From assembly GCF_000802235.1 (NCBI RefSeq), contig NZ_JTDL01000118.1:1-43171 (forward strand): 43,171 nt of DNA, read 5' to 3'. Positions 1,892 to 41,953 of this stretch are shown in pieces. Position 1 is the stretch's first letter. Each line of letters begins with the position of its first letter. Below the pieces are notes generated by a model. That model did not search any database. It saw only the letters and a list, made by a program, of their open reading frames with translations, and was not told the DNA's origin. The stretch is from Sinomonas humi (GTDB lineage: Bacteria; Actinomycetota; Actinomycetes; Actinomycetales; Micrococcaceae). The position numbers and the translations under genes are program-made.

Positions 1892-1927
1892 GTCTACATC
1901 TTGCCGTAGGCCGAGCAGCGCTCCGAG

Positions 1928-2038: not shown

Positions 2039-2067
2039 ATTGCGGCGGCCCGGAATGCCTGACACTA

Positions 2068-2078: not shown

Positions 2079-2116
2079 CATGGTCCGGTCCTCCTGCCCG
2101 GGCCGGAGAGGACACC

Positions 2117-2965
2117 ATGAAGATTGCGCTCTTCGCGACGTGCATCGTCGACGCGATGTACCCGCGCGTCGCGCAGGCCACGGTCCAGATCCTGGAGCGG
2201 CTCGGGCACGAGGTCGTGTTTCCGGCGGGGCAGGCGTGCTGTGGGCAGATGCACCTGAATTCGGGTTACTTCCGAGAGGCCCTTCCCGTGGTCGAGAACC
2301 ATGTGCGAGCGTTCGAATCCGGGTTCAACTCTGGCGAGTACGACGTGGCCGTCGCACCTTCCGGATCGTGCGTCGCGTCGGTGAAGCATCAGCACGCGAT
2401 GGTGGCCCGGTGGGCGGTTGAGAGGGGAGACAAGCGCGCCGACGCAACCCTCGAGGCCCGCGCAGACGCCGTGGGCGAGCGGACCTACGAGCTCAGCCAG
2501 CTCCTCACCGACGTCCTCGGCGTCACGGATGCCGCTGCTCAGCTCGGCTCCTACCTCCCCGGCGCAATCACGTATCACCCCTCTTGCCACGGGATGAGGC
2601 TCCTGCGTCTCGGCGACCGACCGCTCAGCCTGCTGCGCACGGTAGAGGCGCTCAACGTCGTTGCCCTCCCCGAAGCCGACCAGTGCTGCGGCTTCGGCGG
2701 CACCTTCTCCATCAAGAACGCGGACGTCTCATCGGCGATGCTCGCGGACAAGGTCGAGAACATCTGCGGGACCGGCGCCGGGGCGTGCGCGGGTGGGGAT
2801 GTCTCGTGCCTCATGCACATCGGCGGGGGCCTTTCCCGCGAGGGGCGCACGACGGAGTCCGGAGCTCCAGTGCGGACCGTCCACCTCGCGGAGGTGCTTG
2901 CCTCGACCCGCGAGAATCCCCTGAGCTTCGACGGGGCCCTCGCGCTGGCGGGAGGTGCGCGATGA
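2117..2965 (+). CDS. lldE: L-lactate oxidation subunit LldE/LutA, cysteine-rich Fe-S protein
   Basis: A 282-residue protein of the LutA/LldE (YkgE) family, one of three subunits that oxidise L-lactate to pyruvate in the cytoplasm or at the membrane. It has two cysteine-rich (CCG) domains: CCGQMHLNSG at residues 41-50 and QCCGFGGTFSIKN at 189-201, with the partner cysteines in PSGSC (85) and PSCH (157). These typically ligate an Fe-S cluster and pass electrons to quinone. A GAGAGGA Shine-Dalgarno precedes the ATG. It overlaps lldF by 4 nt (ATGA), so the three lld genes are translationally coupled. Confidence 0.93.
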   Translation: MKIALFATCIVDAMYPRVAQATVQILERLGHEVVFPAGQACCGQMHLNSGYFREALPVVENHVRAFESGFNSGEYDVAVAPSGSCVASVKHQHAMVARWAVERGDKRADATLEARADAVGERTYELSQLLTDVLGVTDAAAQLGSYLPGAITYHPSCHGMRLLRLGDRPLSLLRTVEALNVVALPEADQCCGFGGTFSIKNADVSSAMLADKVENICGTGAGACAGGDVSCLMHIGGGLSREGRTTESGAPVRTVHLAEVLASTRENPLSFDGALALAGGAR

Positions 2966-23602: not shown

Positions 23603-23663
23603 ACCGTCGGGAGGTGACGATCAAACGGCGGTGCACCGTCGGGAGGTGACGATCAAACGGCGG
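23603..23663 (-). repeat. 32-bp tandem repeat, 2 copies, overlapping the DUF2891 stop
   Basis: Copies 23603-23634 and 23635-23663 (the last few bases diverge). On the minus strand the core reads GTCACCTCCCGACGG. The stop codon of the DUF2891 gene (23653-23655) lies inside the gene-proximal copy, and the second copy repeats the final codons and stop. Confidence 0.9.
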
Positions 23664-24738
23664 GGGTGAGCTCCGCCATCGACTCGAGGGCGTCCCACGC
23701 GAAGCTCGCGAGCCAGTGGGTCGACATGAAGTCCTCGCTGCTGAGGGCCGCGAGCCCGGCGCGCAGAAGCGGCTCGAGCGCGCCAGCCAGCACAGGCTCT
23801 GCGGACGAAGCCGCCGAGGCGCCCTTGAGCGCCCGCACCACCCGGGCGATCTGGCCAGCGCGGCTGAGGTTGAGGCCGTGGAGGTGCACCATGTAGCCAT
23901 CGGACTCGTCGGTCACTCCCACAACGGCAAGCATCCGCGAGTCGGCACGCAGAGCCGGGAGGAATCGCTCGAGCCACGCTGCGAATTCGTCGGCCGGAAG
24001 CACCCGCTGCATGAGGTCAGCCTCGCTGAGCCCGGCCGAGAGGAAGTCCTGCCCGCTGAGCTCCCACTCGCTGGCCCAACCGGCGTCGGACGCGAACCAG
24101 CCCCGGGCTGCGGCCTCGCACGCCTCCACGGCGTCCGCCCGGCCGAGCGCGCGGAACGCGTCGAGCAGGAGGGCGACGCCGAACGCGGAGTTCGTGTGCA
24201 GCCCGTGCCGAACGGGGTACTCGGCCTTGGCGAGCCACTCCTCGACAAGGCGGGCGACGACGTCGACGCACCCTTCGAGGTTGCGCCCCCAGCCGCGGAT
24301 CTCCTCGTCGGGCGAGCCCGCGCACGCCGCCGCGAGCCGGACGAGCCAGGCCCAGCCGTACGGCCGCTCCCACGAAGGGTTGTCCGCAAGATACGAAGCC
24401 TCGACGGCGAGCTTCTCGGCCGTGAGGTTCTCGCCCAGGGCGCCCCTCAGCTGGGCCGCGGTCGCCTCGTCGAGGCCACGGCCGCCGTCGTCCGCTGCGC
24501 CTGCCTCGCGCCCGGCTGCCACCACGGAGTTCAGGACGCTCACGCCCAGCCAATGCATGTGGACGCACGAGTGCCAGTCGAACGACGTGTAGAACGAGGG
24601 GTGCAACTCGGACGGCGTGGGGCGGTCCTCGGCTGAACGCTGGGTGTGGTGCGCCGAGTACGGGTAGGCGCGGCCCAGGTTGTCGAGGACGACGCCGGCG
24701 CAGTGCTCGGCGGCCGAGGGGAAGATGTCGAGTTCCAT
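23653..24738 (-). CDS. DUF2891 family protein, unknown function
   Basis: A 361-residue soluble protein of the DUF2891 family, which looks all-helical and rich in Trp/His; YSAHHTQRS, HPSFYTSFDWHSCVHMHWLG (about 45-64) and MSTHWLASFAW near the C-terminus hold the conserved His/Trp residues. No signal peptide. The enzymatic activity is not known; the conserved His/Asp pattern and toroid-like helical repeat suggest a hydrolase or isomerase acting on a small molecule. It is the last gene after DUF969-DUF979, 10 nt behind DUF979, so it should share their substrate. SD AGGAG lies 7 nt before the ATG. Its stop lies within a 32-bp repeat. Confidence 0.8.
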   Translation of the reverse strand: MELDIFPSAAEHCAGVVLDNLGRAYPYSAHHTQRSAEDRPTPSELHPSFYTSFDWHSCVHMHWLGVSVLNSVVAAGREAGAADDGGRGLDEATAAQLRGALGENLTAEKLAVEASYLADNPSWERPYGWAWLVRLAAACAGSPDEEIRGWGRNLEGCVDVVARLVEEWLAKAEYPVRHGLHTNSAFGVALLLDAFRALGRADAVEACEAAARGWFASDAGWASEWELSGQDFLSAGLSEADLMQRVLPADEFAAWLERFLPALRADSRMLAVVGVTDESDGYMVHLHGLNLSRAGQIARVVRALKGASAASSAEPVLAGALEPLLRAGLAALSSEDFMSTHWLASFAWDALESMAELTPAV

Positions 24739-24748
24739 TCAGACGCTC

Positions 24749-25717
24749 CTAGAAGGCGAGGAAGTACATGAGGGCGGTGTTGACGACGAGGAGCGGGAAG
24801 GCGGTGCCCAGCTGCGCCCCGATGACTCCGTACTTGTTCTTCATTTCGAGGAGCGCCGACGGCACGAGGTTGAAGTTCGCCGCCATCGGGGTGCAGAGCG
24901 TGCCGCAGAAGCCGGCGAGCATGCCGATAGCGAAGACGATCGGCGGGTTCCCGTGGAACTGCTGGACGAGCACGGGCCAGCCGATCGCCGCCGTCATGAT
25001 CGGGAAGGCCGCGAAACCGTTGCCCATGAGCACCGTGAACACGAACATCCCGACGCAGTAGACGATCACGGCCGCTAGGAGGGAGCCCTTCGGCATGACG
25101 CCCGTGGCGAGCGTGCTCACTGCAGTGCCCACGCCGGCCTTGGTGAAGAGGATCCCGAGAGTCGAAAGCATCTGCGGGAGAAGGGCTGCCCAGCCGATGG
25201 ACTCAAGGATCCGGCGGCTTTCGAACACCGGCGTGAGCGGGTGCTTCGGCCGGAGGATGAGGAGGGCGACGACGGCGGCCACGATTGCGCCGATGGCGAG
25301 GGCCACGAGGGTCGTGTTCTTGGGGTCCAGGATCGGGGTCTTGCCGATGTTGAGCACCGGCGCGAGCAGCACGAGGATGACCGTGACGACCGGCAGCGTG
25401 AGCGCCGGGATGAAGAGCTTGTTCCCGAAACGCGCAGCGAAGGCCTCGCGCTGTTCACCGGTCGAGGTCTTGGCCCTGCCGTCCGCGAGCTGACCGCTCG
25501 CGGCGAGCGCCACGAGCACGAGGACGGCGATGCCGAGGATCCAGCCGGGAGCGGTGCCGGCCTGGACCCACGTGCCGTAGAAGAAGCAGAGGCCGAGCAG
25601 GCCCCAGAAGGCGGAGCTTCCCCAGCGGCGTGGATGATTCGGGTCCCGCATGATGAGCGCGGCCCACGCGATGAACAGGATTCCGATGAACCAGTAGACG
25701 GCTTCGACGTTGATCAC
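24749..25717 (-). CDS. DUF979 membrane protein, putative transporter subunit (5-oxoproline?)
   Basis: A 322-residue integral membrane protein with about nine hydrophobic segments (VEAVYWFIGILFIAWAALIM at the start; FAIGMLAGFCGTLCTPMAANF near 275). It matches DUF979, which is almost always paired with DUF969. The pair resembles a split ion-transporter-type permease. In streptococci a DUF969-DUF979 pair neighbours pyrrolidone-carboxylate peptidase (from memory), which fits 5-oxoproline or a pyroglutamyl peptide as substrate. Here the operator shared with pxpA gives independent support. It overlaps DUF969 by 4 nt. Confidence 0.8.
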   Translation of the reverse strand: MINVEAVYWFIGILFIAWAALIMRDPNHPRRWGSSAFWGLLGLCFFYGTWVQAGTAPGWILGIAVLVLVALAASGQLADGRAKTSTGEQREAFAARFGNKLFIPALTLPVVTVILVLLAPVLNIGKTPILDPKNTTLVALAIGAIVAAVVALLILRPKHPLTPVFESRRILESIGWAALLPQMLSTLGILFTKAGVGTAVSTLATGVMPKGSLLAAVIVYCVGMFVFTVLMGNGFAAFPIMTAAIGWPVLVQQFHGNPPIVFAIGMLAGFCGTLCTPMAANFNLVPSALLEMKNKYGVIGAQLGTAFPLLVVNTALMYFLAF

Positions 25718-26424
25718 TTGGCTTCTCCTGCGACGGCGGGCTCCGTGGCCTCGAGCTTGCGGTATTCCTTGTCGAGCGACTTGTCCAGCCGCAGGAGCCG
25801 GAAGCCGTGGATGAGGAACGCCGCGAGCGCGGTGGGGATGGCCCAGAGGGCGAGCTGGAGCGGCTCAAGGTGGAGGTGGTACGTGGTGTCCACGAAGGTC
25901 GTGATGAGCAGGATCGAGCCGACCGCCACGAAGACGTCCTCGCCGAAGAAGACGCCCACGTTGTCTGCGCCGGCCGAGTGGGCCTTGATGCGCTCCTTGA
26001 TGTGCTCCGGGACGTGGCCGTAGCGGCGCAGCGCCGCACCCTCGGCCATCGGGAAGACGAGCGGGCGGACGGTCTGCGCGTGGCCGCCGACGCTGTTGAG
26101 GCCGACGGCGGCCGTGATCTGCCGTACGGCGAGGTACCCGAGGAGCACGCGGCCGGCAGTGAGCTTTGCGAGCTTTCCGATGAGGGTCTTGGCCTGCTCC
26201 TGGAGGCCGAAGAACTCGATGATGCCGACGACGGGCAGCACCGCGACGAAGATCGTCACGGAGCGGCTGCTGGCGAAGCCGCTGCCGAACGCGTCGAGGA
26301 TCTGGACGGGATTGAGGCCACCGAGGAGAGCGGTGACGATGCCGGCGACAGTGACGACGACAAGTGGGTTCAGGCGGATGGCGAAGCCAACAATCACCAG
26401 AAGAACCCCGATAAGTACGAGCAT
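25714..26424 (-). CDS. DUF969 membrane protein, putative transporter subunit (5-oxoproline?)
   Basis: A 236-residue membrane protein with about five hydrophobic segments, starting LVLIGVLLVIVGFAIRLNP, with AVGLNSVGGHAQTVRPLVFPM (about 107-127) as the most conserved DUF969 region. It is the first gene of the operon DUF969-DUF979-DUF2891 and should form one permease with DUF979. Two TTGTTSAACAA operators lie 76-109 nt upstream, overlapping the likely promoter. Transport of 5-oxoproline is an inference, not shown. Confidence 0.8.
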   Translation of the reverse strand: MLVLIGVLLVIVGFAIRLNPLVVVTVAGIVTALLGGLNPVQILDAFGSGFASSRSVTIFVAVLPVVGIIEFFGLQEQAKTLIGKLAKLTAGRVLLGYLAVRQITAAVGLNSVGGHAQTVRPLVFPMAEGAALRRYGHVPEHIKERIKAHSAGADNVGVFFGEDVFVAVGSILLITTFVDTTYHLHLEPLQLALWAIPTALAAFLIHGFRLLRLDKSLDKEYRKLEATEPAVAGEAK

Positions 26425-26499
26425 GATGATCCGTTCCGGAGGGAGTGCTGTCCTGGGAAGGGGAGTGCCGAAATGGCGTGTGATCTAGAGCATAACCTT

Positions 26500-26533
26500 T
26501 TGTTCAACAATCAAGCAAGAGCTTGTTGAACAA
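26500..26533. promoter_or_regulatory. Paired operators TTGTTCAACAA and TTGTTGAACAA of the DUF969 operon
   Basis: Two 11-bp palindromes, 26500-26510 and 26523-26533, 23 bp centre to centre. On the minus strand a likely -10 TATGCT follows 8 nt after the first; that palindrome would sit in the spacer between -35 and -10, ideal for repression. The identical sequence occurs upstream of pxpA at 37183-37193. Confidence 0.8.
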
Positions 26534-26558
26534 TTCTGGTCAGCGGACTGGGCGACCC

Positions 26559-26598
26559 TTCCGACCTGCTTTGGCCGAAGACATTCCGACCTGCTTTG
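26559..26598. repeat. Two copies of TTCCGACCTGCTTTG, 25-bp period
   Basis: Exact 15-bp copies at 26559-26573 and 26584-26598, in the gap between the GntR gene stop (26682) and the DUF969 promoter. Directly after it, AAACGGACGACGGCGG (26607-26622) is a motif also found inside lldF. 26623-26681 shows nothing further. Confidence 0.75.
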
Positions 26599-26681
26599 AG
26601 CGCGCAAAACGGACGACGGCGGCGTGGCGAGCGGCGCGTCGCGGGAACCGGGGGTGAAAGAAGGTCGGGAACGTCCGTGAA

Positions 26682-27359
26682 TCAGCCGCGGACGGCCGCG
26701 AGGAGCTGCTCTTCGGCCCGGTCGAGGTAATCGGCCATGAGCTCCGCGGCCTCCGAGGCGTTGCCGGCCTCGAGGAGTTCGACGATGCGCGCGTTGTCCT
26801 CGACATACGGCGCGTGGAACCTCGGATCGGAGCCCATGCTCGCGAACACGAGGCGCATCTCCGCAAGGATCTGCTCCATGAGGCTGTCGAGGCGCTCGCT
26901 GCCGGCGCGCGCGACGAGGGCCCTGTGGAACTCCTGGTTCGCATTGGCCATGGCAGGCACGTCTCCGGCTTCGGCGGCCTTCCGCGCCTCTCGGACGATT
27001 TCGTCCAAGCGCTCGGTCGGGCCCGCAGGAGACCACAGGAGCGAGGCTGGCTCGACGAGCCTGCGGGCGCGGTAGATCTCGCGGATGTCGTCGGCCGTGG
27101 GGTGGGAGACGAAGACACCGCGATTGGGGATGCGGGTCACGACGCGCTCGGCGTGCAATGTGGCGAATGCCTCGCGGAGGGTGTTGCGAGATACGCCGAG
27201 CGCCTCGCGCAGGGCTTCTTCGGCGAGTTTCGCGCCCGGGGCAAGGTCGCCGTCGGCAATCCGCTGGCGGAGCTGCGCGGCGACCCACGTGCTCGTCTCG
27301 GCGTGCTTCGTGCTCCGGGCCTGCGCACGCAGGCTAGCCAGGACCCCCTCGGATGTCAT
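26682..27359 (-). CDS. GntR/FCD regulator, probable repressor of the 5-oxoproline genes
   Basis: A 225-residue GntR protein: winged helix at about 23-90 (KLAEEALREALGVSRNTLREAFATLHAERVV) and an FCD domain at about 93-220 (NQEFHRALVARAG, the His metal-ligand region). It is transcribed towards the DUF969 operon and lies immediately upstream of two TTGTTSAACAA palindromes, a plausible site for an FCD protein; the third copy is at pxpA. Probably a repressor released by 5-oxoproline or a related acid. No Shine-Dalgarno; TAGGGT lies 6 nt before the ATG. Confidence 0.88.
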   Translation of the reverse strand: MTSEGVLASLRAQARSTKHAETSTWVAAQLRQRIADGDLAPGAKLAEEALREALGVSRNTLREAFATLHAERVVTRIPNRGVFVSHPTADDIREIYRARRLVEPASLLWSPAGPTERLDEIVREARKAAEAGDVPAMANANQEFHRALVARAGSERLDSLMEQILAEMRLVFASMGSDPRFHAPYVEDNARIVELLEAGNASEAAELMADYLDRAEEQLLAAVRG

Positions 27360-27371
27360 GGCTCAACCCTA
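27360..27371 (-). promoter_or_regulatory. -10 of the GntR gene, leaderless arrangement
   Basis: On the minus strand TAGGGT (27366-27371) is followed by TGAGCC and the ATG at 27359. The 31-nt gap to the LysR stop leaves the -35 region inside or next to the LysR gene end; none is obvious. Confidence 0.4.
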
Positions 27372-27390
27372 ACGGCGCCTCGAAGGGTTC

Positions 27391-28317
27391 TTATTGCTCC
27401 AGCACAGCGGGCTTCCAAGCCCGCCCTGTCTCGATGAGGATCTTCCGCATGGCGGTCCCGGCAGGGGTGAGTCGTTCTCCCCTCCTGTGGGCGAGGACGA
27501 TACGCCGGGACGGTGGCCTCGGCGAGACGATCGTGAGCACCTTGGTGTCGTTGCGCAGGCTGTAGAGCGAGAGCCGGGGAACCAAGGCGATGCCCATGCC
27601 GACGGCGACCATCGCCTGCGCCTCCTGGTAGCTGCGCGCTTCGAACGTGACGATCGGATCGAAGCCTGCCGCTTCGCAGGCTGTCTGGAGCAGGGCAAGG
27701 ACGTTTGGCGAGGTGCGGATGATCCACGGCTCGTGACGGAGTTCGTCCATGCGGACCGATCGCCGGTCGGCGAGAGGATGGTTGGCGGGTATCAGGAGGA
27801 CGTTAGGGTCGCGGAAGATCAGCTCGCTGTTCAGCCCCGTCCCCGAGCTGCTGTCGGGTTGGTCCCGGTCCCAGGTAATGGCCAGTTCGATCTCCCTGGA
27901 TTCGAGGAGATGTTCGAGGCCCGAGAGCTGAGCGCTGTGGATCCGCAGGTCAACCCCCGGGTGATGTTCCCGGAAGGCGGAGATCGCCGTCGGAAGGAAG
28001 GACTCGGTCACCGTCGGGACCGTGCCGAGCCGCAGCGTGCCGGTGTTGAGCCCTGCGAGGTCGCGAAGCTCCTCGTGCGCAGCGGAGACGATCCGTTCGA
28101 TCTTCTCGGCATGGCGCACGACGGCGTGCCCCGCCTCTGTCAGGGTCACTCCCCGAGGGCGACGCTCGATGAGCGGTTGACCCGCCTCGTCCTCCAGTTG
28201 GCCAACTTGCTGCGAGACGGCCGAGACGGTGTAGTTCAGGCTCGCGGCCGCAGCAGTCAAAGACCCGGCCCGGGCTACTTCGACCAGAACGAGCATGCGC
28301 CTGATGTCCATTCCCAC
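27391..28317 (-). CDS. LysR-family regulator of the PrpF-MFS-TcuA cluster
   Basis: A 308-residue LysR protein: helix-turn-helix at about 4-63 (MLVLVEVARAGSLTAAAASLNYTVSAVSQQVGQLE region) and a substrate-binding domain at about 92-295. It is divergent from prpF with 99 nt between, so it probably activates that operon with a tricarboxylate as inducer, like TcuR. GTG at 28317 is preferred because TAGGAT lies exactly 6 nt upstream; ATG at 28311 is the alternative. Confidence 0.88.
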   Translation of the reverse strand: MGMDIRRMLVLVEVARAGSLTAAAASLNYTVSAVSQQVGQLEDEAGQPLIERRPRGVTLTEAGHAVVRHAEKIERIVSAAHEELRDLAGLNTGTLRLGTVPTVTESFLPTAISAFREHHPGVDLRIHSAQLSGLEHLLESREIELAITWDRDQPDSSSGTGLNSELIFRDPNVLLIPANHPLADRRSVRMDELRHEPWIIRTSPNVLALLQTACEAAGFDPIVTFEARSYQEAQAMVAVGMGIALVPRLSLYSLRNDTKVLTIVSPRPPSRRIVLAHRRGERLTPAGTAMRKILIETGRAWKPAVLEQ

Positions 28318-28329
28318 GCATCGATCCTA
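28318..28329 (-). promoter_or_regulatory. -10 of the LysR gene, leaderless arrangement
   Basis: Minus-strand TAGGAT (28324-28329), then CGATGC, then GTG at 28317. No ribosome site is present. The neighbouring inverted repeat at 28337-28363 would lie just upstream of this -10, where autoregulation is expected. Confidence 0.45.
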
Positions 28330-28336
28330 CAGCAGG

Positions 28337-28363
28337 GCTAAAGGAGGCTTCAGAAACTTTAGC
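28337..28363. promoter_or_regulatory. Inverted repeat GCTAAAG-N13-CTTTAGC, candidate LysR site
   Basis: Perfect 7-bp arms (28337-28343, 28357-28363) in the divergent LysR-prpF promoter region. The left arm is part of AGGGCTA, which also occurs in the palindrome AGGGCTAGCCCT upstream of the MFS gene (29692-29703). Confidence 0.5.
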
Positions 28364-28416
28364 TGGTTCAAATCCTCCTCCCGCTCCACGCTTGATGTTG
28401 AACGGAAGGAGTTCAG

Positions 28417-29607
28417 GTGAATCCGAGTCCAACAGAGGCCACGCTCGACATCGCGGGAGCATGGGTGCGAGGAGGCACGAGCAAGTGCTGGATCTTCGCT
28501 GCCGAGGCGGTGAAGGCCGCGCATCTCGAGCTCGACGTGCTGCTCGAAAACGCCCTCGGTTCGGGCGATCGCCGGCAGGTCGACGGCGTTGGCGGCGCGA
28601 CCTCAACCACGTCGAAGGTCGCGGTGGTCTCGCGGTCCACTGAGCCCGGTGCGGACGTGGACTACCTCTTCGGCCAGGTGGGAATCGAGGACCGCGTCGT
28701 CGAGTGGGGCAGCAACTGCGGAAACTGCGCCACCGCCGTCGGCCTCTATGCAGTCCAAGAGGGCCTCGTCGCCATCTATGGGGAGACGACGACGGTCCGG
28801 CTCCGCAACGTCAACACTGGCGCCGCCCTGCAGGTCGAGGTCGCGACGCCCGGCGGGCGCGCCCCTCGCGCGGGGGATGCCCTCGTGCCCGGCGTCGAAT
28901 CCGGCGGAGTGCCGGTCGAGCTGACCTTCCACGGGCCGTTCGACTTCGGCGACGCGTTCCCCACGGGCCAGGCGCGCGAAGTCGTCAGCGCCGGCGGGGT
29001 CGCCGCCCAAGCGACCATCGTCAGGGCCGGGGCGCCGGCGATCCTGGTCGACGCGGAGAGCATCGGGATGACCGGAATCGAGAACGCGGAGGACATCGCA
29101 GAGCGGCTGCCGATCCTCACGGCCTTCCGGGCCGCCGGTGCCGTGCTGCACGGTCTGGTCCAGCCCGGCGAGCCCGCCCCCAACGCGGTGCCCAAGACGG
29201 GAGTGATCGGACCCGCAAGCGACTACCGCGCCTCGGACGGGAGCCTCGTCCGGGCGCGGGACTACGACGTCGCCGTCCGCATGCTCTCCATGCACGCAGC
29301 CCACCCGGCGATCGGGCTGACCTCGGCGGTGGCGGTTGCCACGGCCGCGGCCACGCCGGGGTCCGTCGTCCACTCGTACGGAGGCGGTCACCGGAACAGC
29401 CTGCGGATCGGCACCCTGTCCGGAGTGGTCCAAGTGGAATGGAGGACCTCGCCGGACGGCAGCATCGAGGGTGTTTCCCTGCACCGCGCCGCACGCAGGC
29501 TGGCCACCGCAGTCCTGCATGTTCCGACGGCGGGAGACCCCCGCCTGATGAGAGCAGCGGCAGGGGATCCCAACGCATCCGCGGCCAGTCTCGCAGTCCC
29601 GGCCTGA
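28417..29607 (+). CDS. PrpF-family isomerase (aconitate/methylaconitate type)
   Basis: A 396-residue PrpF-family protein (two-lobed diaminopimelate-epimerase fold). WVRGGTSKCWIF near residue 16 and EWGSNCGNCATAVGLYAV near 91-108 are family signatures with the catalytic Lys/Cys region. PrpF relatives isomerise the double bond of aconitate, 2-methylaconitate, methylitaconate or 4-oxalomesaconate. Here, next to a TcuA-like dehydrogenase and a transporter, conversion between trans- and cis-aconitate is the best guess. GTG start, supported by GGAAGGAG at 28404. Confidence 0.85.
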   Translation: MNPSPTEATLDIAGAWVRGGTSKCWIFAAEAVKAAHLELDVLLENALGSGDRRQVDGVGGATSTTSKVAVVSRSTEPGADVDYLFGQVGIEDRVVEWGSNCGNCATAVGLYAVQEGLVAIYGETTTVRLRNVNTGAALQVEVATPGGRAPRAGDALVPGVESGGVPVELTFHGPFDFGDAFPTGQAREVVSAGGVAAQATIVRAGAPAILVDAESIGMTGIENAEDIAERLPILTAFRAAGAVLHGLVQPGEPAPNAVPKTGVIGPASDYRASDGSLVRARDYDVAVRMLSMHAAHPAIGLTSAVAVATAAATPGSVVHSYGGGHRNSLRIGTLSGVVQVEWRTSPDGSIEGVSLHRAARRLATAVLHVPTAGDPRLMRAAAGDPNASAASLAVPA

Positions 29608-29691
29608 AACGGCTTCGCCCCCCAGCCGACTGCGCAACCTTCAATCCATCACGCAGCCATCAACCCATCGGCGGGAACATCCCCTGCCGTA

Positions 29692-29703
29692 AGGGCTAGC
29701 CCT
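29692..29703. promoter_or_regulatory. Perfect 12-bp palindrome AGGGCTAGCCCT upstream of the MFS gene
   Basis: It lies 49-60 nt before the MFS start and shares AGGGCTA with the LysR-prpF region. It could be a second binding site of the cluster regulator. The rest of the 144-nt gap holds only the ribosome site AAGGAGG (29740-29746). Confidence 0.4.
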
Positions 29704-29751
29704 AGGCGGCAACGAAAATGTCGCCGACCATTATCTATCAAGGAGGATAGA

Positions 29752-31143
29752 TTGCTCACTCCATCAATGACGGCAGCACGGCTGGACCGTCTGCCGATCA
29801 CCAAGGCGCACAAGATCGCCCTGGTGACCCTTTCCTTCGTGTTCCTCTTCGAGTTCGGAGACCTGAACACCTTCGCGTACGTCGCCCCCGCGCTGGTCAA
29901 GCACCTAAGGTTCTCCGTGCAGGACATCGCCGTCGTCACCTCGGCCGCGTTCCTCGGCATGGCCGTCGGCGCCATCTTCGGCGGCCGGGTCTCGGACCTC
30001 ATCGGACGCAAACGGGCCCTCCTGTATTCGACCCTGATGTTCTCGGTCTTCTCCCTCGTCAACGCGGCTGGCGTCAACGTGCCGACCTTCCTCGTCTTCC
30101 GCTTCCTGACCGGGGTGGGCCTCTCGGCGATGGTCGTTGCCGCAACGACCTACATCTCAGAATTCATGCCGGCCTCGAAGCGTGGGCGCATGCAGTCGGC
30201 AGTCATGGCAGTGGGCCTGGCCGGGATCCCGTTCATGTCGTTTTCGGCTAGGGGAATCGTTCCTCTGGGCAACGAGGCGTGGCGCCTGGTCTTCGTCCTC
30301 GGCTCCGCTGCGCTGCTGGCCGTTCCGGCACTGTTGGTCCTGCCCGAGAGCCCCCGATGGCTCGTCCACAAGGGCCACCTGCAGGCGGCCGAGAAGATCA
30401 TCGCGCGGCTGGAGCTCATGGCCGGCCCGCTCGCACCCCTCAAGGAGACCGTTGGGACCGCTGAAACCCAGGCCAGCCTCGGGTACCGGCACCTCTTCCG
30501 CGGCCGGACGGGACGCACCACCCTCTTCCTCGCCGTCGTCTGGATCTTCCAGACTCTCGGCTTCTACGGCTTCGTGGCCTGGGTCCCCACCCTCCTCGCG
30601 CAGCACGGCTTCAGCGTCGCGGAGTCTCTGGGATTCTCCGCTCTGACCACCATCGGCGCCGTTCCCGGTGCCCTGCTCGCCTGGCCCGTCACCGATCGCC
30701 TCGGGCGGAAGGTTCCCCTCGTCGTCGTCTCCCTCGCCACTGCGGCGAGCGGTCTGGCCTACGGGCTGACCTTCAACCCGATCGCCATCGTCGCCTTCGG
30801 CTTCTGCGTGAACCTCCTGATCCAGACTTTCGCCACCCTGCTCTACGCCTACAGCCCCGAACTGTTCCCGACCGGGCTGCGGAACGCGGGCCACGGCCTC
30901 GTCTACGGAACAGGACGTCTGGCGAACATCTTCGGCCCCATGATCGTCGCAGCGATCTTCGCAGGCTTGGGCTATCAGGCCGTCTTCGTCTACATCGCAG
31001 CCTGCTGGCTCGTCGTCGCCCTCGCGATCGCCTTCTTCGGGCCCCGCACCGGCAAGCAGCCGCTCGAGGCCCTCTCACAGGAGGCCGTGGAGACGGTCGA
31101 AGCACCGAAGCCGGGCGCCCGCGCGGAATCCTCCCCGGCCTGA
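29752..31143 (+). CDS. MFS transporter, acid:H+ symporter type (tricarboxylate?)
   Basis: A 463-residue major facilitator protein with 12 hydrophobic segments. FGGRVSDLIGRKRALL and WPVTDRLGRKVPLVV are the duplicated loop motifs, and RFLTGVGLSAMVVAATTYISEFMP resembles the aromatic acid and sugar symporter groups. It should bring the cluster's substrate, probably tricarballylate or aconitate, into the cell. TTG at 29752 is chosen because AAGGAGG lies 5 nt upstream; ATG 29767 is the alternative. Confidence 0.85.
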   Translation: MLTPSMTAARLDRLPITKAHKIALVTLSFVFLFEFGDLNTFAYVAPALVKHLRFSVQDIAVVTSAAFLGMAVGAIFGGRVSDLIGRKRALLYSTLMFSVFSLVNAAGVNVPTFLVFRFLTGVGLSAMVVAATTYISEFMPASKRGRMQSAVMAVGLAGIPFMSFSARGIVPLGNEAWRLVFVLGSAALLAVPALLVLPESPRWLVHKGHLQAAEKIIARLELMAGPLAPLKETVGTAETQASLGYRHLFRGRTGRTTLFLAVVWIFQTLGFYGFVAWVPTLLAQHGFSVAESLGFSALTTIGAVPGALLAWPVTDRLGRKVPLVVVSLATAASGLAYGLTFNPIAIVAFGFCVNLLIQTFATLLYAYSPELFPTGLRNAGHGLVYGTGRLANIFGPMIVAAIFAGLGYQAVFVYIAACWLVVALAIAFFGPRTGKQPLEALSQEAVETVEAPKPGARAESSPA

Positions 31144-31181
31144 CGCCTCGACAGCACCAATCATCATCTGAAAGAACACCT

Positions 31182-31214
31182 ATCCGGCGCTGCCACAGCA
31201 CGGCAGCGCCGGAT
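31182..31214 (+). other. Perfect 13-bp stem-loop between the MFS and TcuA genes
   Basis: ATCCGGCGCTGCC (31182-31194) and its exact complement (31202-31214) flank a 7-nt loop. No U-run follows, so it is not a standard terminator. It ends 19 nt before the TTG start of the next gene and may act as an RNA-stability or partial-termination element, lowering expression of the third gene. Confidence 0.65.
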
Positions 31215-31233
31215 GCAATGAAAGGCATTCCCC

Positions 31234-32727
31234 TTGAGCGAGTCCAACGGAACCAAGAACCAGAACATGGTCGCGGACGTCATCGTGGTCGGCGGAGGCA
31301 ACGCCGCCTTCACGGCCGCGCACGCAGCGGCCGTGCGCGGCCGGAAGGTCCTGTTGCTGGAGAAGGCTCCGCGGGAGCTCTTCGGCGGCAACAGCTATTA
31401 CACGGCCGGCGCCACCCGCATTGCCCACGAGGGCCTGGATGACCTGACGGACTTCATCGAACCCGACGAACGGCACGCGCTCACAGAGGTCCCGCCCTAC
31501 ACGCCGGAGGACTACGCCCGGGACATGGAGAAGGTCACGGGCGGCCGCAACGACCCCGACTTGACTCAGGCGCTGGTCAACGAGGCCGGCCCCGGGCTGC
31601 GGTGGCTGAACTCGCTCGGCCTGAAGTACCGGCTGATGTACGAGCGCCAGGCCTACGAGCGCCACGATGGCACCTACCTCTTCTGGGGCGGTCTGCACGT
31701 CGGGAACGTCGGCGGCGGCGAAGGCCTCATGCATGATCACGTCAAGGTCGCCGAGCGGCTCGGCACAGAGGTCCGCTACGGCCAGGACGTCTTCGACCTC
31801 ATCGTCCAGGAGGGGACCGTCAGGGGAGTGAAGGCTCGGCAGCACGACGGCACCGTCCACGAGCTGCGCGCAGAATCCGTGGTCCTGGCCGCCGGCGGCT
31901 TCGAAGCGAACCGGGAACTGCGCCGTGAGCACCTTGGCCCCGGCTGGGAGAACGCCAAGGTCCGGGGCACGCCCTTCAACACTGGCCAGATGCTCATGGC
32001 CGCCCTCGAACTCGGAGCGGCCAAGGGCGGGGACTGGGCATCCTGCCATTCCACCCAGTGGGACGCCTTCACCCCGGGGAACGAATCGAACCGGGAGCTG
32101 ACCAACAGGCTCACGCGGCAGAGCTATCCGCTCGGCATCATCGTCAACAGCGGTGGGGAGCGGTTCGTGGACGAGGGAGAGGACTTCAGGAACTACACGT
32201 ACGCGAAGTTCGGCAGGAACATCCTTGAGCAGCCCGGCTCGATCGCCTACCAGATCTTCGACGCCGGCCTGCGCCCGATGCTGCGCGCCGAGGAATACGA
32301 GATGCCCGGAGTCTCCGTCGAGACCGCTGACAACGTCGAGGAGCTCGCCGAGCGGATCGGGGTGGACCCGGAGGCACTCGCGAAGACCGTCAACGACTAC
32401 AACAACTCCATCGACCCCTCGATCCCCTTCGACCCGAACGTCAAGGACGGGAGGAAAGCGAAGACGACGCCGGTGAAGAGCAACTGGGCGACGCCCTTGG
32501 CGGCTGGTCCCTTCTACGCGTACCCAGTCACCTGCGGCATCACGTTCACCTTCGGGGGCCTGAAGTCTGACGCCCACGGGCGCGTCCTCGACACCGCCGG
32601 CGAGCAAATCCCAGGCCTCTACGTGTGCGGGGAGATGCTCGGCGGCCTCTTCGCGGGCAACTACCCCGGAGGCTCGGGACTCGCGGCAGGAGTCGTCTTC
32701 GGCCGCAGGGCAGGCTCGATCGCCTGA
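31234..32727 (+). CDS. tcuA: FAD-dependent dehydrogenase, TcuA (tricarballylate dehydrogenase)-like
   Basis: A 497-residue flavoprotein of the fumarate reductase/succinate dehydrogenase flavoprotein family. VADVIVVGGGNAAFTAAHAA (about 12-31) is the FAD-binding Rossmann motif; GGNSYYTAGATRIA (about 50-63) and CGITFTFGGLKSDAHGRVLD (C-terminal) match TcuA. TcuA oxidises tricarballylate to cis-aconitate, feeding the citrate cycle. The electron-transfer partner TcuB is not encoded here. TTG start at 31234; a weak GAAAGG lies upstream. Other substrates, such as unsaturated acids for reduction, cannot be excluded. Confidence 0.8.
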   Translation: MSESNGTKNQNMVADVIVVGGGNAAFTAAHAAAVRGRKVLLLEKAPRELFGGNSYYTAGATRIAHEGLDDLTDFIEPDERHALTEVPPYTPEDYARDMEKVTGGRNDPDLTQALVNEAGPGLRWLNSLGLKYRLMYERQAYERHDGTYLFWGGLHVGNVGGGEGLMHDHVKVAERLGTEVRYGQDVFDLIVQEGTVRGVKARQHDGTVHELRAESVVLAAGGFEANRELRREHLGPGWENAKVRGTPFNTGQMLMAALELGAAKGGDWASCHSTQWDAFTPGNESNRELTNRLTRQSYPLGIIVNSGGERFVDEGEDFRNYTYAKFGRNILEQPGSIAYQIFDAGLRPMLRAEEYEMPGVSVETADNVEELAERIGVDPEALAKTVNDYNNSIDPSIPFDPNVKDGRKAKTTPVKSNWATPLAAGPFYAYPVTCGITFTFGGLKSDAHGRVLDTAGEQIPGLYVCGEMLGGLFAGNYPGGSGLAAGVVFGRRAGSIA

Positions 32728-32854
32728 ACAAGACTTCCGGCGTCGGCATGCATGGGAAAACTCGCAACAAGCACCTCGAAAGCCGAGGGCCGGCGCCGGA
32801 ACTCCCTTCTCAACGAGCACTGCTCCACACCGTTTCGGGTACAGATACTCCCGA

Positions 32855-34612
32855 CTACCCGATCGTGGTCAGGACGTCGCCCGCGGCCACCGTGTCGCCG
32901 GGGGCGGCGGCATGCTCGCCGAGCGTCCCGGCGCGGTGCGCTTGGACGGTCGTTTCCATCTTCATCGCTTCGACGACGACGACGCCGGCCCCCGCCTCGA
33001 CTGCCTCACCGGGGCTGACGAGCCATTTCACCACGGTGCCGCCCATGCCGGCCGTGAGCGCAGAGGGCGACGACGACGCCGAGCCGCCCGCCGTCGTCGT
33101 CCGCTGCCCATTTGAGGCGGAAGGGGACGCCGTAGCCCCCGCCGCCAAACCGGCGAACAGCGCTTCCGGGACGCCGAGCGTGACCCGCCGCCCGTCGATA
33201 TCGACGGCGAAGGTGCGCCGACCGCCGTCGGGTGCGGCCGCGCTGAACTCCGGGTTCGCGGCGAGCTCTGAGGCGAACTCGGACTCGATCCACGTCGTGT
33301 AGATGCCGAGTTCGTGCTCCGCGGCGAACGCGGGGCTGTCGACGACGGCGCGGTCGAACGGGAGGACCGTCGCGAGGCCGTGGATCTCGAACTCGCGCAG
33401 CGCCCGCCGGGCGCGTCGGAGCGCCTGCTGCCGGTCCGCGCCCCACACGACGAGCTTTGCGAGCAGCGAGTCGAACTGCCCCGGCACCACGGAACCGTCG
33501 CGGACCCCGGAGTCCACGCGCACGCCGGGCCCGCTGGGAGCTGCGAAGCGCGTCACCTTCCCGGGCGACGGCAGGAAGCCGCGTCCCGGATCCTCGGCAT
33601 TGATGCGGAACTCGATTGCGTGGCCGCGCGGTTCGGGGTCCTCGAGGACCGGGAGTTGACCGCCGTCGGCAATGACGAGTTGCGCCGCGACAAGATCCAC
33701 TCCGGAGGTCTCCTCCGTGATCGGGTGCTCGACTTGGAGGCGCGTGTTGACCTCGAGGAAGCTCAGGGTGCCGGTGCGGTCGAGGAGGTACTCGACCGTC
33801 CCCGCGCCGAAGTACCCCGCCTCGCGGCAGATCGCCTTAGCCGATTCGTGGATCCGGGCCCGCTGCTCCAGGGTGAGGAATGGCGCGGGGGCCTCCTCGA
33901 CGAGCTTCTGGTGCCGGCGCTGCAGAGAGCAGTCCCTGGTGCCGACGACGATGACGTTCCCGTGAGTGTCCGCGAGGACCTGGGCCTCGACGTGGCGCGG
34001 CCGGTCGAGGAACTTCTCGACGAAGCACTCCTCACGTCCGAACGCTGCCCGGGACTCGCGCACCGCGGAATCGAAGCTCTCCTCGATCTCGGCCATCGTC
34101 CGGGCGACCTTGAGCCCCCGGCCGCCGCCGCCGAACGCGGCCTTGATCGCGACCGGAAGGCCGTGTTCGCGGGCGAACTCACGCACTTCCTCGGCGCTAG
34201 CCACCGGCCCGTCGCTGCCCGGCGCGAGCGGCGCCCCGGCGCGGACGGCGACTGCGCGGGCGCTGACCTTGTCGCCGAGGAGCCGGATGGTCTCGGGGGA
34301 GGGGCCGATCCACGTGAGGCCCGCGTCGAGGACGGCCTGGGCGAAGGCTGCGTTCTCGGAGAGGAACCCATAGCCGGGGTGCACCGAGTCGGCGCCTGAG
34401 CGCGCGGCGACTGCGAGGATCTTCTCCGCGTCGAGATACGTATCGGCTGGGGACGTCCCGCCGAGCGCGTACGCCTCGCTGCAGGCCGTGACGTGGAGGG
34501 CGTCGGCGTCTTGGTCGGCGTATACAGCGACGCTCTCGAGGCCCGCATCATCGCAGGCTCGGGCCACGCGGACGGCGATCTCGCCGCGGTTGGCGATGAG
34601 GACTTTACGCAT
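32855..34612 (-). CDS. Biotin carboxylase fused to biotin carboxyl carrier protein
   Basis: A 585-residue protein: biotin carboxylase residues 1-445 ([30 protein letters not shown] near 163-176; [17 protein letters not shown] near 291-307), a linker of about 75 residues, then a biotinyl domain with [10 protein letters not shown] (K551 biotinylated). It carboxylates biotin with bicarbonate and ATP. No acyl-CoA carboxyltransferase is near; instead it is the third gene after pxpA-pxpBC. Because PxpB/PxpC are homologous to the carboxyltransferase part of urea carboxylase, it may serve a lactam-carboxylating complex. A propionyl- or acetyl-CoA carboxylase role cannot be ruled out. The 32728-32854 gap to tcuA shows only a CCGGCGCCGG palindrome. 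Confidence 0.88.
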
Positions 34613-34657
34613 CGGTGCTTCCTGTTGGCTGGGTGGAAGGGAGAAGGGCTGAAGCGG

Positions 34658-36343
34658 TCATAGGGGCGGCGCGACCATTTTGAACTGGACGCGCGCACCG
34701 GGCGGGAGCTGGGCGGCGAGGTCGAGGTCCGCGTTCACGACGACGCCGATCACCGGATAGCCCCCGGTCACGGGATGGTCCGCGAGGAAGAGGACGGGCT
34801 GCCCATTCGGCGGGACCTGCACAGACCCGAGCACGGTGCCCTCGCTCTGGAGCTCGCCGTCGCGGGTGCGTTCGAGTTCGGGGCCCGAGAGGCGTAGGCC
34901 CACCCGGCTCGATTGTGGGGTCACGGTCCATTCCTCGGAGAAGAAGACCTCGGCCGAGGCGTCCGTGAACCAATCCTGGCGCGGGCCCGGGACCACGCGC
35001 AGCACGGCCGCGCCTTCGGGCAGCGGCGGCGCCGTCTCGGGGGTTCCGACGACGCTCACGCCGCGCGCCGGAAGGACTCCGAGCTGCGTCCCGGGGCGGA
35101 TGGGCTCGGGGCCGATGCCCGAGAGTGTGTCGGTCGAGCGGCTGCCGAGGATCTCGGGGGCATCGAGCCCGCCGCGGACCGCGACGTAGCTGCGCAGCCC
35201 CGCGGAGGGCGCGCCGAGCGTGAGGGTCTCCCCCGCGAGTAGAGCGAAAGGGGCGTCGAGCGAGGGGCTGCGTTCGACGGCGGGTGGTGACGCGCCGTCG
35301 TCGTCCGCGCACCCAGGCCCGCCGCGGACGATGCTCAGCGGCACGCGCGCGCCGGTGACGGCGAGGACCTGGTCGCGCTCGGCGCGCAGGACGAGCGCGC
35401 CGAACAGCACCTCGAGCACCGCCGCGCCCTCCGGGTTGCCGGCGAGGCGGTTCGCCCGGCGAAGGGACGCGCGGTCCACGGCCCCGGCGGCGCTCACCCC
35501 GAGTGCGGCGAGCCCTGGCCGGCCGAGGTCCTGGAACGTGCTTTGCAGCCCGGGGGAGACGACCACGAGACCGGTATCGGCTGCGGGGGCCGCGGTGCCT
35601 GCGGTCGACGGCGTGGGCGTCGTCGTGCGCTGCTCGCTGGGCTCGGTGAGCCGGGCGCTCTCCCGCACCGGCTCGAAACGCACCCGATCACCCGGCCGGA
35701 TGAGCGCCGGGTTCGGGCGCTCGAGGTCCCACATGACGGCGGACGTGCGGCCGAGGAGCTGCCACCCGCCCGGCGACTCCCGTGGGTACACGGCTGAATA
35801 GGTGCCCGCGATCGCGACGGACCCGGCCGGGACCGCCGTGCGCGGGGACGATCTGCGTGGGACGTCGAGGGCGCCGTCGCCCGCGAGGTACGCGAAGCCC
35901 GGCGCGAAGCCGCCGAACGCCGCGTTCCAGACCTGCCCCGAATGCACAGCGACCACTGCCTCGCGGCTCAGCCCGGTGAGCTGGGCAACCTCGTCGAGGT
36001 CGGCGCCGTCGTACACGGTCTCGATTACTACGAGCTCGCCCTGGCGTTGCGCGCCCGACGTGAGGTCGAGGGTGCGGACGCGCTGAACGATCGCCTCGAG
36101 GGCCTCCGGGGAGTCGGCGGCCACGAGGACCGTGGTTGCGGCTGCGATGACATCGAGCTGGCCCGGGAGCGGCTCGGCATCCAGCTCGCGCGCCAGGCTG
36201 AGGACGGCGTCGAGGGAGGAGAGCTCGATGAGGACGGCGCGGTCGCCGGCGGGGCGGAGGCCGACGACGGCGGGCTCCCGGGGCGCCGATGCCGGGGCGG
36301 CTGGCGCGGCCGGGGGTGGTGCGTCGGTCTGCTTGAGGGCCAT
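34658..36343 (-). CDS. pxpBC: 5-oxoprolinase subunits PxpB and PxpC fused in one protein
   Basis: A 561-residue fusion. Residues about 25-235 are PxpB/KipI (RPAGDRAVLIEL; FGGFAPGFAYLAGD; PRRSSPRTAVPAGSVAIAG). A Thr/Pro/Ala linker leads to PxpC/KipA at about 255-558 (GLQSTFQDLGRPGLAALGVSAAGAVD; YVAVRGGLDAP; ADHPVTGGYPVIG). With PxpA these form the ATP-dependent 5-oxoprolinase that opens pyroglutamate to glutamate. The two halves are also homologous to the carboxyltransferase domain of urea carboxylase. Start ATG 36343 is 2 nt after the pxpA stop. The linker contains copies of the GACGACGACG motif. Confidence 0.9.
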   Translation of the reverse strand: MALKQTDAPPPAAPAAPASAPREPAVVGLRPAGDRAVLIELSSLDAVLSLARELDAEPLPGQLDVIAAATTVLVAADSPEALEAIVQRVRTLDLTSGAQRQGELVVIETVYDGADLDEVAQLTGLSREAVVAVHSGQVWNAAFGGFAPGFAYLAGDGALDVPRRSSPRTAVPAGSVAIAGTYSAVYPRESPGGWQLLGRTSAVMWDLERPNPALIRPGDRVRFEPVRESARLTEPSEQRTTTPTPSTAGTAAPAADTGLVVVSPGLQSTFQDLGRPGLAALGVSAAGAVDRASLRRANRLAGNPEGAAVLEVLFGALVLRAERDQVLAVTGARVPLSIVRGGPGCADDDGASPPAVERSPSLDAPFALLAGETLTLGAPSAGLRSYVAVRGGLDAPEILGSRSTDTLSGIGPEPIRPGTQLGVLPARGVSVVGTPETAPPLPEGAAVLRVVPGPRQDWFTDASAEVFFSEEWTVTPQSSRVGLRLSGPELERTRDGELQSEGTVLGSVQVPPNGQPVLFLADHPVTGGYPVIGVVVNADLDLAAQLPPGARVQFKMVAPPL

Positions 36344-36345
36344 GG

Positions 36346-37131
36346 TTACGCGAAGCTCCGGATCTCGACTCCGGCCTCGGTTATGGCTTCCCTGATGCGG
36401 GCCGCCATAGCGACCGCGCCCGGCGTATCGCCGTGCACACAGATGCTCTCGGCGCGGATCGGGACGATCGTGCCGTCGATCGCTCGGACCTTCCCGTCGA
36501 GGATGCGGAGCACATGCTCGACGATCGCATCCAGATCGTGGAGCACGGAGCCCGGCTCGCGCCGGGACACAAGGGTTCCGTCCGGGTTGTAGGCGCGGTC
36601 GGCGAAAGCCTCGATGACGGGGCGGAGGCCGATCCCCTCGGCGACGCGCTGGATCTCGGAGCCGGGGAGGACGAGGATCGGCAGGTTGGGGTCCACTGCG
36701 TGGACGGCGCGGGCGACGGCCTCAGCCTGGGCTGCGTGGTGGACGATCGTGTTGTAGAGGGCGCCGTGCGGCTTGACGTAGCGGACCTCCGTGCCCGCCG
36801 CGCGGGCAAGGCCCTGCAGGGCGCTGATCTGGTACACCACTTCGTCCGTCAGCTCCCGCGGGTCCATGTCGATGAACCGGCGGCCGAACCCGGCCAGGTC
36901 TCGGTACCCCGGATGCGCGCCCACGGCGATGCCGGCGGCGGCCGCGGCGTCGCACGTCTTGCGGATGTGGTGCGGGTCCCCCGCGTGGAAGCCGCACGCG
37001 ACGTTGGCGCTTGAGACACTCTTGAAGATCGCCGCGTCATCGCCGAACGTCCAGTTGCTGAAGGATTCGCCGACGTCGCTGTTGAGGTCTATTCCTTCGC
37101 GGGCGATTCCTTCGCCGTCGATGCTTGCCAA
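36346..37131 (-). CDS. pxpA: 5-oxoprolinase subunit A (LamB/YcsF family)
   Basis: A 261-residue LamB/YcsF protein. [20 protein letters not shown] (about 13-32) and [17 protein letters not shown] (about 42-59) hold the conserved acidic and histidine residues of the barrel active site; KPHGALYN (about 120) is a further signature. It is the catalytic partner of PxpB/PxpC and first gene of pxpA-pxpBC-carboxylase. The TTG at 37131 is supported by GGAGG 6 nt upstream. A GntR-type operator lies 52-62 nt upstream. Confidence 0.93.
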
Positions 37132-37182
37132 TGTGACCTCCGTCGCAGATGTGATGCTTCAAGCATGCACGATCGCGGAGGA

Positions 37183-37193
37183 TTGTTCAACAA
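37183..37193. promoter_or_regulatory. Operator TTGTTCAACAA upstream of pxpA
   Basis: The same 11-bp palindrome as at 26500-26510. On the minus strand TTGAAC within it can be a -35, with CATGCT 17 bp downstream as a weak -10, so a bound regulator would block the polymerase. Confidence 0.8.
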
Positions 37194-41190: not shown

Positions 41191-41229
41191 TTCCGGATAG
41201 TCCTGTTCTAGGTATTGTTTGTCTGACAA
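41191..41229 (+). promoter_or_regulatory. Promoter and GntR operator TTGTCTGACAA upstream of the GntR-SDR operon
   Basis: TTCCGG (41191-41196) and TATTGT (41214-41219) are 17 bp apart. The perfect 11-bp palindrome TTGTC-T-GACAA (41219-41229) overlaps the end of the -10 and the expected transcription start. This arrangement suits autorepression by the GntR protein encoded 26 nt downstream. The preceding 41064-41190 stretch shows no gene. Confidence 0.65.
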
Positions 41230-41254
41230 TCTGCATGAGGAAGCGAGGTGCACA

Positions 41255-41953
41255 ATGGCAGACGCAATCTTGCGTGCCGCTGCGCGTCTGTCGCCGGTCG
41301 CCTCGGTGTCGAGGCGGGACGGAGTGATCAACGAGATCCGGCGCGCGGTCGTCGTCGGCTCGATCAAGCCCGGCGACAAGCTCACAGAGGCCCAGCTCTC
41401 GGAGTGGCTCAGCGTCAGTCGACCGACTGTTCGGGAGGCGCTCAACCAGCTGGCGCAGGAGGGCCTCCTGGTTCAGGAGCCGTATCGCGGACTCCGCGTC
41501 GCGACCCTCGATCCGGACATGATCATGGACCTCGCCCACACTAGAGTGGCCTTGGACATGCTCGCCGCCGAGGCGATCTGGGCGGATTCCTCGGGACGCC
41601 GAATGCAGCTCGTGGAGCAGGCGTGGGCAGAGTACAAGGGGCTCGAATTCGACCCCGATCCCATCGTGAAGCATGAAGCACACGTGGCCTTCCATCGCAA
41701 CATCTGGGCCGCCTCTGAGAACGCAATGCTGCTGCGCCTTTGGCCCGTCACGGAGGCCCATCTCACGATCGTCCTGGCCCAGGACCAGGCCACGCGGGAC
41801 GATCCCGTCCGCGCTCACGACGTGCACGAGCGTCTGGTCGAGGCCCTGAAGAGCGGGGACATGGGCGTCATCCGCGCCGGATTCGAGGAGCACACGGTTG
41901 CTAGCGCCGAAGAGCTGATCGCCATGTTGGAGAGAAAGGAACCGAAGATATGA
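41255..41953 (+). CDS. GntR/FCD-family regulator, autoregulated
   Basis: A 232-residue GntR protein: winged helix at about 19-85 (KLTEAQLSEWLSVSRPTVREALNQLAQEGLL) and an FCD domain (HEAHVAFHRNIWAASENAMLLRLW with the His ligand; HDVHERLVEALKSGD). It is co-transcribed with an SDR-like gene (4-nt overlap), which probably belongs to its regulated pathway. ATG 41255 with GAGGTG upstream is preferred to an in-frame TTG at 41219 that lies within the operator. Confidence 0.88.
   Translation: MADAILRAAARLSPVASVSRRDGVINEIRRAVVVGSIKPGDKLTEAQLSEWLSVSRPTVREALNQLAQEGLLVQEPYRGLRVATLDPDMIMDLAHTRVALDMLAAEAIWADSSGRRMQLVEQAWAEYKGLEFDPDPIVKHEAHVAFHRNIWAASENAMLLRLWPVTEAHLTIVLAQDQATRDDPVRAHDVHERLVEALKSGDMGVIRAGFEEHTVASAEELIAMLERKEPKI

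Follow-up and report, generated by a model that had tools for sequence, protein, structure and literature searches.

A shared PxpR-type operator is predicted to join the 5-oxoprolinase operon and a DUF969-DUF979 transporter operon of Sinomonas humi in one regulon

Which regulator, and which substrate, would join two operons that stand some 10 kb apart and carry the same palindrome? The question is raised by a stretch of 43,171 nucleotides from Sinomonas humi (contig NZ_JTDL01000118.1, positions 1 to 43,171), here called the window, in which TTGTTSAACAA precedes both the 5-oxoprolinase gene pxpA and an operon encoding DUF969, DUF979 and DUF2891. Very probably, the window holds a PxpR regulon in the form that it takes in Micrococcaceae, with a putative 5-oxoproline-sensing repressor over a breakdown operon and a DUF969/DUF979 import operon. 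That both operons belong to one regulon, as an earlier note on this DNA had proposed, is strongly supported because the palindrome is the core of the known PxpR operator, because regulator and palindrome go together across 120 genomes and because DUF969-DUF979 is exchanged with the transporter PxpT.

The earlier note had reported one palindrome upstream of pxpA and two upstream of DUF969, and all three are exact. On the minus strand, the pxpA promoter carries TTGTTCAACAA at 37183..37193, while the DUF969 promoter carries a proximal copy at 26500..26510 (TTGTTCAACAA) and a distal one at 26523..26533 (TTGTTGAACAA); the mean per shuffled window is 0.00 (100 dinucleotide-preserving shuffles). The description as perfect palindromes is right for the matches, but the symmetry covers 10 of the 11 bases, the central base being C or G. 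The genome-wide search that had been proposed (4,416,081 bases, 4.42 Mb, in 156 contigs) returns just these three exact copies, which belong to the promoters of DUF969 and pxpA and to no unrelated gene, compared with one match of the reversed control pattern. When up to one mismatch is allowed, 25 sites are found, the three exact ones counted in, against 8 for the control. Thus, specificity is carried by the exact form alone and the one-mismatch sites in the genome are uninformative.

The palindrome is identical to the 11-bp core of a known operator. Upstream of pxpTABC in Corynebacterium glutamicum stands AGATTGTTCAACAATCT, the site of action of the GntR repressor PxpR, and reporter expression rises 6.5-fold when this motif is altered or deleted; PxpR senses intracellular 5-oxoproline and binds it with a dissociation constant of 726 nM (PMC13274462; this and the other papers cited by PMC number were accessible in part, and statements on them refer to those parts). 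That the operator functions and that PxpR binds 5-oxoproline is known from that species and would carry over to the window by analogy, whereas the sites, their uniqueness and conservation, the co-occurrence with the regulator and the exchange of transporters were computed here. One genome (G186) is taken for C. glutamicum because two of five primer pieces from that paper, as well as the operator, match its locus L249; there, pxpR and pxpT flank the box. When C. glutamicum PxpR is compared with the window genome, the best of 26 matches at an E-value of 0.01 or better is the GntR/FCD gene at 26682..27359 on the minus strand (116 bits, 40% identity; the next match has 77 bits). The putative recognition helix LGVSRNTLREAF is identical in the two proteins and differs in a further GntR protein of the window, at 41219..41953. 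From best match and helix, it is strongly supported that 26682..27359 encodes the PxpR orthologue.

A survey of 120 genomes of one family (f1), taken for Micrococcaceae, reveals that regulator and palindrome go together. The palindrome is found in 96 of these genomes, PxpA in 109, the GntR orthologue in 86 (E-value 1e-30), the NRAMP-type PxpT in 60 (E-value 1e-60), DUF2891 in 28 and DUF969 in 19. The 86 genomes with the GntR orthologue contain 238 palindromes, with at least one in 84, while the 34 others contain 16, with at least one in 12; the reversed control gives 0.56 and 0.41 per genome, respectively. The difference in palindrome number has a Mann-Whitney p of 5e-14, uncorrected for kinship.

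To see where the palindromes stand, we use 40 loci fetched from 37 of the 120 genomes, a non-random set picked for hits to pxpA, GntR or DUF969 and including two genomes (G043, G045) picked for being without the palindrome. In the 37 genomes, 69 of 95 palindromes fall inside the fetched loci, which make up 0.45% of the sequence (genome sizes rounded). As many as 65 of the 69 are at the start of a gene, i.e., within 400 bp before it or 60 bp inside it: 29 at PxpA, 17 at PxpT, 15 at DUF969, 3 at GntR and one at DUF2891. The other four comprise two before a DUF979 remnant (L085) and two that are unexplained (L112, L120). Of the 34 fetched loci that contain PxpA, 27 have a site upstream of it. Among the 14 fetched DUF969 loci, the site stands before DUF969 in ten, before a DUF2891 gene at the head of the operon in one (L092) and in the gap between GntR and DUF969 in one (L108), and two are siteless (L117, L118). 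The palindrome is thus found upstream of both operons in other Micrococcaceae, the comparative check that the earlier note had suggested, and its choice of the GntR gene between the operons as the regulator, with predicted binding, is strongly supported by the co-occurrence with the palindrome.

What would the second operon import? On the minus strand, DUF969 (25714..26424; PF06149, 280 bits) and DUF979 (24749..25717; PF06166, 386 bits) are adjacent with a 4-base overlap, as is expected for the two halves of the proposed split 5-oxoproline importer. Neither protein has a match in NCBIfam, and the Pfam label is still that of unknown function. In the survey, DUF969 and PxpT never occur together: PxpT is present in none of the 19 DUF969 genomes and in 60 of the 101 others or, among pxpA genomes only, in 0 of 18 with DUF969 and 60 of 91 without. 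In genomes without DUF969, the palindrome instead precedes an NRAMP-family gene (checked with Pfam for six), and one such PxpT copy (L110) is 64% identical to PxpT of C. glutamicum, where deletion of pxpT abolishes growth on 5-oxoproline (PMC13274462). The site is assigned to PxpT in 10 of 11 fetched PxpT loci, seven times as a pair 23-24 bp apart, and in the eleventh (L087) to the divergent GntR gene. Operator pairs with the same spacing, as in the window, are found in 5 of the 10 loci where DUF969 is preceded by a site. Both transporter types occur inside the genera g9, g10, g13 and g26, so the exchange happened more than once. Such a pattern would be expected of alternative uptake systems that share a substrate.

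The earlier proposal that DUF969-DUF979 imports 5-oxoproline is therefore strongly supported as a predicted role, because the pair is exchanged with PxpT under one kind of promoter. The role itself is already in print: Niehaus 2017 (as cited in PMC11467057 and PMC12795558) put it forward on the basis of gene neighbourhood, it was assumed in a model of Bacillus megaterium (PMC6904757), and the Clostridioides difficile pair gives a confident predicted complex (PMC11467057). The exchange under one operator is new and independent evidence for it. In a congener (G037, locus L085, at 1447-3739 and 9128-10636), no DUF969 was found, and a short DUF979 remnant lies behind an intact operator pair. The same locus contains a major facilitator superfamily (MFS) gene and an adjoining gene of the D-glutamate-cyclase family, divergent from pxpA and with an extra palindrome between.

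Comparison with relatives suggests how the operators are placed in the two promoters. At the DUF969 promoter of the window, the putative -35 element TTGCTT (26513..26518) and -10 element TATGCT (26489..26494), both on the minus strand, are separated by 18 bases; the proximal operator would fill this spacer, a position kept in relatives, and the distal one would lie immediately upstream of the -35 element. A proximal operator in the spacer of TTGnnn-17/18-TAnnnT is found in 18 of 21 DUF969 and PxpT promoters including the window, a count made with no shuffled control (23 transporter promoters were listed; the L085 remnant and C. glutamicum were left out). At the pxpA promoter, also on the minus strand, the operator would itself include the -35 element TTGAAC (37185..37190), with CATGCT (37162..37167) as the likely -10 element. 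The arrangement of TTGAAC within the operator, 17-18 bases and CA(T/C)nCT or a close form recurs in 23 of 28 pxpA promoters including the window, again with no shuffled control. Both layouts would suit repression through blocking of the polymerase.

We suggest the following mechanism. The GntR/FCD protein would bind TTGTTSAACAA at the two promoters, where one operator fills the DUF969 spacer, a second sits just before its -35 element and a third covers the -35 element of pxpA. In the absence of 5-oxoproline the repressor would block RNA polymerase, a direction of control that we infer, and binding of 5-oxoproline to the repressor would release both operons. DUF969 and DUF979 would then form two half-transporter chains that jointly import 5-oxoproline, PxpA-PxpBC would convert it to glutamate, and the co-expressed DUF2891 would act as a probably soluble accessory enzyme.

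Several observations weigh against this reading. A strict sigma-70 consensus scan found no promoter at either window site, so the earlier claim that the operators overlap the -35 and -10 elements is backed by the comparison with relatives but not by the scan. The surveyed genomes are related, and the tests overstate significance; the fetched loci were also selected as holders of these genes. DUF969 appears not to be always under PxpR, because three of the 19 DUF969 genomes (G043, G045, G067) have neither the palindrome nor a GntR orthologue at an E-value of 1e-30, while the other 16 have both. One of these three, G067 (82% complete), matches DUF969 and has no PxpA match, and the same is true of Caulobacter vibrioides, which was among the 14 control genomes and also matches DUF2891. 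Another oxoprolinase type may serve the DUF trio in such cases; for alphaproteobacteria, PMC10040529 lists a hydantoinase B/oxoprolinase cluster next to those of DUF969, DUF979 and DUF2891. At the thresholds used, 31 of the 109 pxpA genomes contain neither transporter. The window sites share the 11-bp core of the full 17-bp inverted repeat AGATTGTTCAACAATCT and differ from it in the flanks; the flanking bases vary in the fetched relatives as well. Lastly, the 17-mer was found in 94 stretches among 84,980 species genomes, and 64 of these stretches, as fetched, showed no pxp-type gene; some are cut near the site, four precede proA and some are probably chance matches in AT-rich genomes.

Other explanations can be weighed against the same data. 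That the palindromes are chance matches or a non-regulatory repeat has a negligible probability: for a genome of this length, roughly one chance copy of an 11-mer is expected, in line with the single match of the reversed control, but three of three sites stand at these promoters, their promoter position is similar across genera, the palindrome is the core of an experimentally tested operator (PMC13274462), and the comparative result already speaks against chance. It is also very unlikely that a different GntR protein binds the palindrome and 26682..27359 is just a neighbour. Candidates for such a protein exist, as the genome has 26 PxpR matches, the second of them at C134 with 77 bits, and the window has another GntR gene at 41219..41953. 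It is the 26682..27359 type, however, that co-occurs with the palindrome across the 120 genomes and is called in 28 of the 32 fetched loci where PxpA was called, a set selected in part for this gene, and it is this protein that is the best PxpR match with the identical putative helix, where 41219..41953 differs.

The regulon could also be real and the substrate another. DUF969-DUF979 might import a related compound, such as a pyroglutamyl peptide, another lactam or D-5-oxoproline, with the 5-oxoproline formed from it as the intracellular inducer. Since PxpR senses intracellular 5-oxoproline (PMC13274462), import of any source of it could be so controlled, and a compound of this kind could be processed by DUF2891, which is found in 16 of the 19 DUF969 genomes. 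Yet the mutual exclusion with PxpT, whose loss abolishes growth of C. glutamicum on 5-oxoproline, argues for one common substrate, and a Campylobacter jejuni mutant in the three genes cj0552-4 lost growth on 5-oxoproline, a preliminary result (PMC12795558). We regard import of a related compound as unlikely, and 5-oxoproline remains the preferred substrate of the predicted PxpR regulon.

DUF2891 (23653..24738, minus strand; PF11199, 304 bits against a cut-off of 25) is the third gene of the transporter operon and, judging from its position, belongs to the regulon. One of the three DUF969 genomes that lack it has a contig ending nearby, and in one genome (L092) it heads the operon behind the palindrome. 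It also occurs without DUF969 in 12 of the 120 genomes; in the four g11 genomes, which are of the PxpT type, some 8-9 kb separate it from pxpA. Across the phylum, 12 of 396 sampled genomes have DUF2891. Four of these, from family f5, have it after DUF969-DUF979 and beside pxp genes; for seven others outside the family, there was no pxp gene call in the vicinity. In the f5 genomes (6-8 Mb), the pxp genes are divergent from DUF969-DUF979-DUF2891, and two of the four loci contain an exact palindrome (L315 10527, L316 4031), apparently between both groups, where the starts of the open reading frames are over-extended. In the family alignment, His, Asp, Glu and Trp are invariant at many positions, and DUF2891 is homologous to the solved structures PDB 8ieu/8iev, on which a literature search with these codes and cj0552-cj0554 found no paper. 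A scan of viral contigs gave 19 pattern matches and no relative, and among 19 neighbouring proteins outside or beside pxp loci, partners recur within single genera only (g25, g28) and none across genera. The earlier assignment as an enzyme of the pathway thus fits the operon position and the co-occurrence with DUF969, but no activity can be deduced; with low confidence, we propose a soluble accessory enzyme.

Beyond the family, the other 30 of the 94 17-mer stretches do contain pxp-type genes; two of these are Pseudomonas records that carry gntR, pxpT and pxpA. The exact 17-bp box also occurs 31-40 bp upstream of a proA-type gene in each of four records from corynebacteria. Two of these genes are proA by NCBIfam, with the box at L159 6352-6368 and at L218 1501-1517, the latter just after a glutamate-kinase-like gene; the two others, with the box at L124 3273-3289 and L197 7592-7608 (= L217), are of the aldehyde-dehydrogenase family and of matching length. 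Gamma-glutamyl phosphate cyclises to 5-oxoproline, and therefore PxpR may also tune proline synthesis in those corynebacteria that have the box before proA. It is possible, if doubtful, that PxpR acts as a general sensor of 5-oxoproline in Actinomycetota, over 5-oxoprolinase, exchangeable transporters (PxpT, DUF969-DUF979 and MFS types), DUF2891 as a new 5-oxoproline-metabolising enzyme and, in some corynebacteria, proA. If this is true, leakage of gamma-glutamyl phosphate to 5-oxoproline would be sensed and countered in proline synthesis. In Arthrobacter sp. B6 (L133), two palindromes (4396 and 4414), one of them within the full 17-mer, lie between a gene of the beta-lactamase family and an ice-binding-like gene, and no pxp gene was called in the stretch.

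The remaining genes of the window complete the picture. All gene calls of the earlier note for DUF969, DUF979, DUF2891, GntR/FCD and the 5-oxoprolinase genes agree with Pfam. On the minus strand, pxpA (36346..37131, start codon uncertain) encodes 5-oxoprolinase subunit A with the LamB/YcsF domain (PF03746) and is above the cut-offs of the subfamily models NF003814 and NF003816. It is followed by a pxpBC fusion (34658..36343; PF02682 and PF02626) for subunits B and C, so the domains of all three subunits are present, with PxpB (130.5 bits against 145.55) and PxpC (199.3 against 500) both under the NCBIfam equivalog cut-offs. The next gene of the pxp operon, on the same strand and identified by Pfam, is accC (32855..34612), for a biotin carboxylase that includes a biotin carrier domain with an EAMKM motif; a biotin carboxylase gene more than 50% identical was called in 25 of the 32 loci where PxpA was called. 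LysR, PrpF-like, MFS and TcuA-like genes at 27391..32727 separate accC from the GntR gene; no palindrome and no tie to 5-oxoproline were found there, and perhaps the group serves a tricarboxylic acid. In two congeners (G084, G104), pxpA, pxpBC, accC, gntR, DUF969 and DUF979 are contiguous, and gntR directly follows accC in all four congeners fetched. By this comparison, the LysR group breaks up the pxp cluster in the window and separates the regulator gene from the pxp operon. In one of these congeners, the GntR gene (G104:C1:3737895-3738562) appears as two overlapping match pieces, frameshift-like.

The literature found on DUF969, DUF979 and DUF2891, from a search that left out most subscription literature and RegPrecise, has no mention of PxpR or its operator, and the term DUF is absent from the accessible part of the one paper found on PxpR and 5-oxoproline (PMC13274462). 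This form of the PxpR regulon is not described in the literature found, and as far as that literature goes the regulon is here extended beyond Corynebacterium. The shared operator core and the clean exchange with a known 5-oxoproline transporter form an independent line for the role of DUF969/DUF979, which would give two membrane proteins, long without a name, a place in a known pathway. The role of DUF2891 and the idea of a split transporter become testable by simple growth and binding assays.

The predicted regulon can be compared with three known systems. The C. jejuni genes cj0552-4 are DUF969, DUF979 and DUF2891 in identical order, with the preliminary loss of growth on 5-oxoproline noted above; the accessible text (PMC12795558) treats a glutamine response with no mention of PxpR or the palindrome, and that genome was not searched. 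In Bacillus subtilis, use of 5-oxoproline likewise requires 5-oxoprolinase plus an NRAMP-family transporter, YcsG (as cited in PMC13274462). B. subtilis differs in having no DUF969 match here (it is one of the 14 control genomes, of which Caulobacter alone matched), while PMC6904757 states that DUF969/DUF979 were reported for it. The closest parallel is PxpR-pxpTABC of C. glutamicum, which has a GntR repressor orthologous by best match, the operator core TTGTTCAACAA, PxpABC and a co-controlled transporter. There, a single pxpTABC operon with an NRAMP-family PxpT is controlled from one box, whereas the window has two promoters and three sites, DUF969-DUF979 in place of PxpT, added genes for DUF2891 and biotin carboxylase, and a regulator gene that adjoins the transporter operon.

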